Source of the DNA: Mesonia aquimarina
GTDB lineage: Bacteria > Bacteroidota > Bacteroidia > Flavobacteriales > Flavobacteriaceae
Direction: 5' to 3'
Assembly (NCBI RefSeq): GCF_003667275.1
Contig: NZ_RCNV01000006.1
Location: 62,001 to 126,000, forward strand
DNA: 64,000 nt
Part shown: piece by piece, positions 28,749-32,974 of the stretch
Numbering within the stretch: position 1 is the stretch's first letter
Layout of the letters: each line of letters begins with the position of its first letter
Program-made: the position numbers and the translations under genes
Notes under the pieces: generated by a model
The model's input: only the letters and a program-made list of their open reading frames with translations
Database searches by the model: none
Told to the model about the DNA's origin: nothing

Positions 28749-31700
28749 ATGAGCTACAATTTTAAGCAGATAGAAGCCAAATGGCAACAATATTGGGCAG
28801 AAAACCAAACTTTTAAAGCCTCGAACAAAAGCGACAAAGAGAAATTTTATGTACTCGATATGTTTCCGTATCCATCGGGAGCCGGCTTGCATGTTGGGCA
28901 TCCGCTCGGTTATATCGCCAGCGATATTGTAGCGCGTTACAAAAGACATCAAGGTTTTAATGTATTGCATCCACAAGGTTACGATTCGTTTGGATTGCCC
29001 GCAGAACAATACGCGATACAAACCGGTCAACATCCTGCAATTACCACCAAAACAAATGTGAAACGCTATCGAGAACAACTTGATAAAATAGGATTTTCAT
29101 TTGATTGGAGCCGAGAAGTTCGCACCAGCGATCCTCATTATTACAAATGGACGCAGTGGATTTTTATTCAACTTTTTGAATCGTATTACTGCAACGATTC
29201 ACAACAAGCTCGACCGATTACTGAACTAAAAGATGTTTTTGCTGAAGAAGGAAATACAACAATTAATGCTGCTTGCGATGATGATGTAGCTGAATTTTCT
29301 GCGGAAGCGTGGAACGCATTTTCTGAAAAAGAACAACAAGAAATTTTATTAAAATATCGCTTAACTTATTTAGCTGAAACCGAAGTAAATTGGTGTCCGC
29401 AATTAGGAACTGTTTTAGCGAACGATGAAATTGTAAACGGCGTTTCTGAACGTGGAGGTTATCCTGTAGTTCGAAAAAAAATGAAGCAATGGAGTATGCG
29501 AATTTCTGCCTATGCAGAACGTTTGCTAAATGGTATTGATTATAACTCAGAAGAACTCGATTGGTCAGAATCTTTAAAAGATATTCAAAGAAATTGGATA
29601 GGTAAATCGAAAGGAGCTACGGTCCATTTCAATTTGTACGATGAGACCCTGAAACAAGTTCAGGGTGACACGCGTCATTCCGAACTTGATTCGGAATCCC
29701 ATCCTCGTATTTCCGTATTCACCACCCGCCCCGATACTATTTTTGGTGTTACGTTTATGACCTTGGCGCCGGAACATGAATTGGTGTCGCAACTAACAAC
29801 TCCAGAACAGAAAGAAGCTGTTGAAAATTATATTGAAGCCACTGCAAAACGCAGCGAGCGTGACCGAATGGCCGATGTAAAAAGCATTACCGGCGTTTTT
29901 ACCGGCGCGTATGCTGAGCATCCATTTACCAAAGAACCAGTGCCGATTTGGATTGGCGACTACGTTTTAGCGAGCTACGGAACCGGCGCGGTAATGGCTG
30001 TACCGTGTGGCGATCAGCGTGATTACGATTTTGCGAAACATTTTAATATTCCGATAAAAAACATTTTTAAAGATGTCGATATTTCTGAAGAAGCGCATGC
30101 CGGAAAAGAAGGAACAGTGATCGCAAATTCAGATTTTTTAAATGATCTTCCGTATAAAAAAGCCTTGAAAACGGCAATTTATGAATTAGAAAAAATTGGT
30201 CAGGGAAAAGGAAAAACTAATTATAGATTACGCGACGCCGTTTTTAGTCGCCAGCGTTATTGGGGCGAACCGTTTCCGGTATATTACGTAAACGGAATGC
30301 CAAAAATGATCGACGAAAAATATTTGCCGCTCCAATTACCGGAAGTCGAAAAATATTTACCTACCGAAGAAGGTGAACCGCCATTAGGAAGAGCTGATGT
30401 TTGGGCGTGGGATGCAAAAAATAATAAAGTGGTTTCTAATGCGATGCTGAATCAAGTTCAGCATGACGAAACTGAACGTACTTCCGAACTTGACTCGGAA
30501 TCTCATCCTGAAGTTTATCCGTTAGAATTAAACACGATGCCGGGTTGGGCGGGAAGTTCTTGGTATTTTTTCCGCTATATGGAAGATGAAAAGCGCGATG
30601 AAGTTTTTGCTTCCGCGGAAGCGATGAAGTATTGGGAAAATGTAGATTTATATTTAGGCGGAAGCGAGCACGCAACCGGTCACTTATTATACTCGCGTTT
30701 TTGGACCAAGTTTTTAAAAGACCGCGGATTGGTACCTGTAGAAGAACCCTTTAAAAAGCTGATTAATCAAGGCATGATTTTGGGTGAAAGTGCTTTTGTT
30801 TACAGGATTTCTGGATTATTGTATCCTTTTGATGATTTAGGGCTAAACTTAGATGACGAGTTTGTCAAGAAAACAGAATTACATGATCTGTATAAACAAA
30901 TTTTTAAACAAAGATTCATTTCATACCCTCTTTTAAAAGAAAATGAAAAAGGCGATAACGGATATCTAGTTTCTGACTGCATTAGATTGAATAAAAGTGA
31001 GATAGAAACTATATTGAGATATGGTTTTGATCCAAATAAATTATCATTCTCTGTTTTAAGGATTCACGCCGATGTTTCTTTAGTCAACACCTCTAATGAA
31101 TTAGATATTGAAGGCTTTAAAGAATGGCTTCCTGAGTTTAGAAATTCGGAGTTTATGATCGAAGAAGATGGTGAGTATACTGTTGAGAGAGAAGTTGAAA
31201 AAATGTCGAAATCAAAATACAATGTCGTTAATCCCGATGATATTTGTAATGAATATGGCGCCGATACCTTGCGAATGTATGAAATGTTCCTCGGGCCGAT
31301 AGAACAAGCAAAACCTTGGAATACTGCAGGAATTACGGGTGTTTATAATTTCTTGAAAAAGCTGTGGAAACTTTACCATTCCCCCTCTAACTCCTCCGAA
31401 GGGGAAGAACAGTTTTCGGTAACCGATACTGAGGCAAGCAAAGAATCGTTAAAAACACTACACAAAACCATTAAAAAAGTAACTGAAGATATTGAAGAAT
31501 TCAGTTTTAATACGTCGGTTTCAACCTTTATGATTTGCGTGAACGAATTAGCTGCACAAAAATGTAACAGCCGAGAAATTTTAGAACCCTTAGCTGTTTT
31601 AATTTCGCCTTATGCGCCACACATTGCGGAAGAATTATGGAGCAAATTAGGGCATTCAGAAAGTATTTCCACCGCTGAATTCCCAATAGTTGAAGAAAAA

Positions 31701-31901
31701 CATCTGGTAGAAAGCACGAAAACCTATCCTATTTCCTTCAACGGAAAAATGCGTTTTACGCTTGATTTGTCGTTAGACCTATCAAAAGATGAAATTGAAA
31801 AAATCGTGATGGAAGATGAGCGTACTCAAAAGCAACTCAACGGCCGCGAACCGAAAAAAGTAATCATTGTTCCCGGTAAAATTGTAAATATTGTTGGGTA
31901 G
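28749..31901 (+). CDS. leuS: Leucine--tRNA ligase with in-frame palindromic insertions
   Basis: Charges tRNA-Leu. At 1050 residues it is roughly 100 longer than the usual flavobacterial enzyme. The core is intact: HVGH at 48-51 (HIGH box), the editing-domain motif TTRPDTIFG, the tryptophan-rich [13 protein letters not shown], and KMSKS at 818-822. Three loops hold inserted repeat DNA: 298-319 ([10 protein letters not shown] and SELDSESHP), 566-587 (MLNQVQHDE and SELDSESHP), and 878-888 ([11 protein letters not shown]). A further long non-canonical stretch lies at about 690-765 before the leucine-specific region. All insertions avoid catalytic motifs and keep frame, so the protein is probably functional. 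Confidence 0.95.
29640..29705 (+). repeat. In-frame paired-hairpin palindromic element, copy 1 (in leuS)
   Basis: A 66-base insert built from two inverted hairpins. The first is CCCTGAA-acaag-TTCAGGG followed by TGAC; the second is GTCA followed by TTCCGAA-cttga-TTCGGAA. The ends GATGAG and CCCATC pair loosely. It encodes 22 residues just before the editing-domain TTRPDT motif. Both hairpins share the core GAACTTGATTC or a close variant of its complement. Confidence 0.85.
30443..30508 (+). repeat. In-frame paired-hairpin palindromic element, copy 2 (in leuS)
   Basis: Same architecture as copy 1: ATGCTGAA-tcaag-TTCAGCAT followed by TGAC, a short spacer, then TTCCGAA-cttgac-TCGGAA and TCTCATC. 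It encodes MLNQVQHDE...SELDSESHP, in the same frame as copy 1, and lies in the loop before [13 protein letters not shown]. Confidence 0.85.
31379..31406 (+). repeat. Small in-frame GC-clamped palindrome (third leuS insertion)
   Basis: TTCCCC (31379-31384) pairs with GGGGAA (31401-31406) around a CTCTAACTCCTCCGAA loop. The run of Cs and Gs stands out in this AT-rich gene. It adds about 11 residues ([11 protein letters not shown]) in a loop of the anticodon-binding part and differs in sequence from the other two elements. Confidence 0.6.
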
Positions 31902-32847: not shown

Positions 32848-32974
32848 GGCTGTATAAAAAGTCTATTTTTGTCAACCTGAACTTGATTCAGGTTCTCATA
32901 CTGGTTTGTATTTCAGCAAAATGAGATTCTGAAATAAATTCAGAATGACGCTTTTTTCACCTTTTTAAACAGCC
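32848..32974. repeat. Terminator-like inverted repeat carrying a nested palindromic element
   Basis: The outer arms GGCTGTATAAAAAG (32848-32861) and CTTTTTAAACAGCC (32961-32974) pair with one mismatch and are flanked by A and T runs like a bidirectional terminator, but they are separated by about 100 bases. The loop holds the leuS-type element (32871-32950). Confidence 0.7.
32871..32950. repeat. Intergenic copy of the paired-hairpin palindromic element
   Basis: GTCAACCTGAACTTGATTCA then GGTTCTCAT forms hairpin one with the same GAACTTGATTC core as in leuS. ATGAGATTCTGAA-ataaa-TTCAGAATGAC forms hairpin two. The ends GTCA/TGAC and CTCAT/ATGAG pair with each other. The unit is diverged but has the same two-hairpin plan. 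Confidence 0.75.

Follow-up and report, generated by a model that had tools for sequence, protein, structure and literature searches.

The window analysed here, a stretch of 64,000 nucleotides from the Mesonia aquimarina genome (assembly GCF_003667275.1, contig NZ_RCNV01000006.1, positions 62,001 to 126,000), contains leuS, the gene for leucyl-tRNA synthetase, the reading frame of which is uninterrupted across 1050 residues (28749-31901). Within the gene lie two inverted pairs of one 29-nt hairpin unit, which share orientation and reading frame. In both pairs the units are in the order minus-plus, such that their tags face inward (TT), whereas a third pair, in a spacer, has its tags outward (HH). 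In window coordinates the features are as follows.

28749..31901, plus strand: leuS, leucyl-tRNA synthetase, host of both inserts (1050 aa; TIGR00396 leuS_bact match)
29640..29670, minus strand: site 1, first REP unit, tag inward (model match E=1.2e-9)
29673..29703, plus strand: site 1, second REP unit, tag inward (model match E=1.0e-8)
30438..30468, minus strand: site 2, first REP unit, tag inward (model match E=3.7e-9)
30477..30507, plus strand: site 2, second REP unit, degenerate tag, GTAC (weak model match E=0.066)
31380..31408, plus strand: small in-frame leuS insert resembling another palindrome, of the CCCC..GGGG type (encodes 12 residues)
32870..32900, plus strand: spacer HH dimer, left unit, tag outward (model match E=7.2e-10)
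32920..32950, minus strand: spacer HH dimer, right unit, tag outward (model match E=1.2e-8)

The site 1 pair comprises codons 298-319 (22 residues), within the Pfam editing domain match (281-477) and directly before VFTTRPDT, where alignment shows the Thermus thermophilus enzyme (1h3n) to be shorter. The site 2 pair encodes 23 residues and precedes NTMPGW, in a stretch that is not aligned to 1h3n. Both sites are probably exposed surface loops. The original prediction described two in-frame copies in the same orientation, each consisting of hairpins paired tail-to-tail, in an essential tRNA synthetase. All of this stands, but the borders require correction. The site 1 range of 29640-29705 corresponds to codons 298-319, with model matches spanning 29640-29703, while the site 2 insert, placed at 30443 and given 66 bases, begins 4-5 bases earlier and spans about 70 bases. 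Similarly, the proposed addition of 22 residues per copy is too high, as, relative to the commonest loop length, site 1 is longer by 18 residues (32 versus 14) and site 2 by 17 (50 versus 33). The place of the small insert at 31380..31408 is occupied by SPSNSPKGGEQF in genome G014 and by NNEEF in G013, G009 and G011. LeuS residues from about 681 to 819 (window 30790-31205), between MILGxSA and KMSKSK, vary in length and sequence across species of the genus, as if hypervariable.

The hairpin unit reads CGTCA-N-CCTGAA-CTTGA-TTCAGG-N-TCTCAT (tag, stem, loop, stem, tail), with a tag of CGTCA or TGTCA, the tail TCTCAT and a stem that displays compensatory changes. The 29-nt pattern, with up to 3 mismatches, matched the window six times and 100 shuffled sequences not once. 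Covariation of the stem was assessed at 7 pairs in 36 units picked by similarity to the consensus: 97.2% of cells were paired and 37 were double-changed, values that none of 500 shuffles equalled, with weaker signals from the number of pairs showing a double change (reached by 9/500 shuffles) and from further pair types (158/500). A covariance model (E<=0.1; 150 of 2736 candidates scored) located 118 units at 75 places in the M. aquimarina genome, comprising 36 HH dimers, 33 single units, 4 TT dimers, one group of three and one HT arrangement. The spacer dimer at 32870-32950, which had been regarded as a diverged copy of the leuS pairs, is thus of the opposite arrangement and belongs to the commonest dimer type of the genome, many members of which share its 19-nt gap.

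A tabulation of units in genes and spacers had been suggested. At the 74 places with sequence (one of the 75 had no fetched segment), only four lie inside open reading frames (ORFs) of at least 100 aa: leuS contains two, a 226-aa ORF one and a 907-aa ORF another, which is a weak match (E=0.03). Indeed leuS holds two of the four TT dimers, and ORFs of at least 100 aa hold none of the 36 HH dimers (p=0.008, a value that treats as independent two leuS copies that may not be so). The 226-aa ORF, which lacks a Pfam match, contains a single unit (C11:457118; L012 1199-1876). A further TT dimer (C2:65567; L007 1490-1571) overlaps what may be the 5' end of a GSCFA ORF of 336 aa; the Pfam match begins at residue 41 of this ORF, so translation may begin downstream, and the dimer was left out of the in-gene count.

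By structure the leuS unit belongs to the CGTC-tagged REP superfamily, and it is close to certain that the leuS inserts are CGTC REPs. These repeats were defined in PMC3733652, which treats them as equivalent to dRS3 in Neisseria and to RPE-4 and RPE-6, reports some units within genes, tRNA synthetases among them, and states that transposase genes are not associated with them. Consistent with this description, the units studied here carry an unpaired CGTC/TGTC tag at one end (degenerate, GTAC, in the plus unit of site 2), have an 8-bp stem and a 5-nt loop, within the 8-9 bp and 4-5 nt of the superfamily (so measured at the units beside the GIY-YIG gene of the same genome, described below, and at its homologues), occur mainly as HH dimers with TT dimers rare, and coexist with no RAYT transposase (a PF01797 search of the M. 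aquimarina genome gave nothing at E<=0.001). The tail, TCTCAT, differs from the CCA type, which is not excluding since PMC3733652 ascribes the latter to most and not all members. The units depart from the described CGTC REPs also in that the in-gene copies are TT dimers concentrated in leuS, and in the GIY-YIG partner that we propose. The likeness to Rickettsia palindromic elements noted in the original prediction is borne out by in-frame, insertion-type behaviour and by a patchy occurrence in relatives; in-frame insertion of such elements is covered in a review (PMC10969869). The comparison nevertheless undersold the relationship, as R. conorii RPE-4 and RPE-6 are placed in the same CGTC-tagged superfamily by the classification of PMC3733652. 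They differ in residing in Rickettsia, another phylum, and in having many host genes.

Beyond the two copies in the window, TT dimers of other genera lie mostly in leuS, the loops are shared with other palindromes and DUF559 cassettes, and CGTC REPs are linked to a lineage of GIY-YIG nucleases. The leuS loops of relatives were surveyed in 149 genomes, 147 of which gave a match; 90 were read (30 loci and 60 stretches), yielding 89 site 1 and 90 site 2 loops. Reading followed score order with few skipped, and 20 of the genomes were partly chosen for an insert-like match geometry, which biases insert frequencies upward. Even so, the site 1 loop is 14 aa in 48/89 and the site 2 loop 33 aa in 73/90, supporting the view that the DNA is inserted rather than native to LeuS; 41 site 1 loops are at least 16 aa, nine of these being of DUF559 size. 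Insertion-type behaviour is therefore supported, as most relatives read lack the inserts, which are patchy on the LeuS tree (many forks of which are weak), and the ORF is intact. Comparison of the insert borders with relatives revealed no clear target-site duplication and no clean empty site; mobility of the leuS elements is inferred.

A pattern derived from the leuS TT dimers identified seven copies in 199 family genomes, five of them in leuS, although its stem is that of the leuS copies, towards which the search may therefore be biased. These five copies, three of which are new here, are all in frame and in one orientation, at site 1 in G000, G020, G431 and G340 and at site 2 in G407. When G000 and G020, known beforehand, are left out, 3/5 copies remain in leuS (binomial 9e-9, ignoring shared descent). 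With the addition of G013, G002 and G377/L426, a TT dimer is present in leuS of eight genomes, representing six genus codes. The evidence that TT dimers are concentrated in leuS is strong. The case for a special position of the gene is based on the census of the M. aquimarina genome and the TT-pattern search of 199 genomes, leuS being the sole essential gene surveyed in this manner.

The same loops accommodate other DNA. The motif YGTCA/TGACR occurs in 23 of 47 short inserts, compared with 17/122 ordinary loops and 209/1800 random 54-nt leuS windows, a rough contrast as the lengths differ. The short inserts include other GTCA-tagged palindromes, GTCATTGCGAGCGAAGCGAAGCAATC or close variants being present in five genomes (L415, L417, L449, L455 and L490). 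In 5 of 16 genomes of the genus (G014, G002, G005, G010 and G015; L069, L061, L062, L063 and L064) a DUF559 domain lies in frame within site 1, bounded by CCCTTCGGGG-like palindromes and free of stops.

It could be argued that the leuS dimers reflect one old insertion that was inherited, or exchanged within leuS by recombination or site-to-site copying, and lost many times, without repeated insertion. In line with this proposal, across six genus codes leuS carries the same type of dimer, in the same orientation and frame, and some flanks are shared, namely RISVF in G000 and G013, and KNNKVV upstream of site 2 in G000 and G002. The patchy distribution on the LeuS tree, with the caveat of its weak forks, argues against it, and so do the different palindromes and DUF559 cassettes in the same loops, which indicate that entry into these loops happened more than once. 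We regard a single old insertion as unlikely, if still a serious contender.

In the M. aquimarina genome a 92-aa GIY-YIG ORF (PF01541, E=4e-15) is preceded by a REP at a distance of 10 bases and followed by REPs at 11 bases. Around 80 homologues, a set seeded with a REP-flanked protein, CGTC (55) and TGTC (45) were the top two of 256 possible tags among 461 hairpins within about 200 nt of the gene. Beyond 500 nt in the same loci, in four times more sequence, they numbered 17 and 9 of 995, although CGTC ranked second there too. Under a strict criterion (a CGTC/TGTC hairpin within 180 nt of the gene), 49/80 homologue genes carried a tagged hairpin, 21 on both sides, and gene ends possessed one in 70/160 cases compared with 6/103 ends of control ORFs from these 80 loci (at least 90 aa long and more than 200 nt distant). 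In a further count, tags pointed only outward in 35/68, in mixed directions in 27/68 and only inward in 6/68. Strict hairpins were found in Bacteroidota (33/56), in Pseudomonadota (4/6) and, at single loci, in Balneolota, Fibrobacterota and several candidate phyla; no such hairpin was present at the single loci from Latescibacterota, Chloroflexota, Bacillota, Doudnaibacteriota and Planctomycetota.

The association is also evident in a set from the genus that was not seeded by REPs, in which 92 of 107 PF01541 matches were examined (62 small and 30 large ORFs; weak, partial or unfetched matches were dropped). A strict hairpin was present at 10/62 small and 0/30 large ORFs (p=0.027), leaving 52 of the 62 small ORFs without a CGTC/TGTC hairpin within 180 nt. 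The looser arrangement of outward YGTCA on both sides was observed at 23/62 small and 0/30 large ORFs (p=2e-5), and inward YGTCA on both sides at 12/62 and 0/30, respectively. Of 24 small ORFs drawn from a longer list in 15 further genomes, 9 qualified; once 10 repeats of seeded loci are taken out, this becomes 1/14. On a GIY-YIG tree of 156 proteins with repeats removed, the hairpin trait requires 11 changes, compared with a mean of 48.1 and a minimum of 40 in 200 shuffles. Thus, the trait marks one GIY-YIG lineage and not the whole family, as most other small GIY-YIG ORFs lack the hairpin and the tree changes are few. The evidence that CGTC REPs are associated with this lineage is strong.

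Ten loci of named species, chosen from 33 plasmid-collection records with a hit, partly for species named in the CGTC paper, were inspected individually. Eight had CGTC-tagged hairpins at the gene, the stems differing by genus; the Planktothrix and Spirosoma loci fell below the strict criterion. The hairpin at the Neisseria gonorrhoeae locus is ATTCCCGC, which we take to be dRS3-type, an Aeromonas record has the same ATTCCCGC, and the others are GCCCCGTG in Novosphingobium aromaticivorans, ATCCCCGC in Azospirillum lipoferum, ATCCTCGGG in Sinorhizobium meliloti, ACCCCGGG at two Sphingobium loci and ATCCCAGGG in Rhizobium. The basis for the Neisseria assignment is PMC3733652. The term 'GIY' is absent from the main text of that paper and from the available text of PMC10969869, and no link between GIY-YIG proteins and REP, palindromic repeats, dRS3 or Correia elements appeared in titles or abstract starts among the matches listed, in a search outside which most subscription journals fell. 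Other GIY-YIG genes, in Salegentibacter and relatives (L293-L297), have TATCGA/TCGAG palindromes nearby, which suggests that further nuclease lineages may be partnered with different repeats. In G014 (L189 1491-3210) a GIY-YIG domain is in one frame with a protein that by eye resembles a specificity subunit (573 aa), the two being joined by repeat-like PLTERSRS peptides.

A REPtron consists of a RAYT transposase gene flanked by GTAG REPs, which RAYTs are thought to copy by break repair. The arrangement described here is similar in that a nuclease gene lies between inverted copies of a dispersed palindrome, but the nuclease is GIY-YIG instead of a Y1 HUH transposase, the tag is CGTC instead of GTAG and the M. 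aquimarina genome has no PF01797 match. The arrangement is accordingly not a RAYT-type REPtron, the flanked gene being GIY-YIG. We propose, with a probability of roughly 0.55, that the leuS inserts are TT dimers of non-autonomous CGTC REPs, partnered by a GIY-YIG lineage that drives palindrome copying. In this model, TT dimers would have entered two LeuS loops in a stop-free frame and persisted because the loops tolerate them. The partners would be single-domain GIY-YIG nucleases, encoded between palindromes whose tags point more often outward than inward. The nuclease would recognise and cut the tagged hairpin, and cutting would drive copying by break repair, as envisaged for RAYTs and GTAG REPs; HH dimers with the 19-nt gap would represent cassettes that lack the gene. 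It should be emphasized, however, that the leuS dimers are of the TT type and have no outer units, for which the model gives no simple account.

The main rival to the nuclease as mover is the nuclease as guest, whereby a homing-type GIY-YIG enzyme cuts tagged palindromes and inserts its gene there, the REPs spreading by another route. REPs are indeed known as insertion targets of IS elements (PMC3733652), the M. aquimarina genome contains a single strict REP-flanked GIY-YIG gene compared with 118 units, and most small GIY-YIG genes lack hairpins. Flanking on two sides, genus-specific stems and occurrence in several phyla look more like the ends of an element, although a guest could also produce them. 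We consider the guest reading unlikely while giving it real weight, and retain the view that the GIY-YIG nuclease probably moves CGTC REPs. CGTC REPs were reported without transposase association (PMC3733652), and with a concrete nuclease partner their spread becomes open to direct test; if genuine, the partner would add a class of REP-mobilising enzyme. A wider form of the proposal, which falls slightly short of an even bet, is that the single-domain GIY-YIG lineage is the missing mobiliser of CGTC palindromes in several phyla, the dRS3-type and RPE-4/6-type included, and constitutes another kind of REPtron, one with no relation to RAYTs, with leuS loops as preferred in-frame docking sites for several such systems. 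That unrelated palindromes and nuclease cassettes dock in frame in the same LeuS loops amounts to a natural experiment on an essential protein absorbing mobile DNA.

Selection of the inserts for a function in LeuS, as a peptide or an mRNA hairpin, might be invoked to explain their concentration in leuS and the in-frame position of the copies read. This is improbable, however, as most relatives read lack the inserts, in the G013 copy one arm has ceased to match its partner fully although the ORF is still open, and unrelated sequences occupy the same loops.

Finally, the DUF559 (PF04480) cassettes of Bacteroidota resemble the GIY-YIG arrangement, being palindrome-flanked nuclease genes in frame in hosts that include leuS site 1, but belong to another nuclease family and another palindrome family; a DUF559 Vsr-like protein is described in PMC12907096. 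That DUF559 nucleases mobilise CGTC REPs, as their presence in the same leuS loop as the CGTC dimers might imply, is extremely improbable and was rejected on tag statistics (51/55 loci usable, 4 skipped), since the hairpins near these genes are of another kind, mostly CCCTCTCC..GGAGAGGG-like, and the CGTC tag is not enriched (2/424 near versus 3/629 far). In G014, a gene that by eye resembles isoleucyl-tRNA synthetase carries an in-frame DUF559 cassette (L089 1430-1860) and a second, small palindrome insert (L089, about 166-240). DUF559 was also observed inside long Bacteroidota ORFs that, again by eye, resemble restriction-modification, helicase and PurL genes (L160, L162, L165, L167, L172, L177 and L187).
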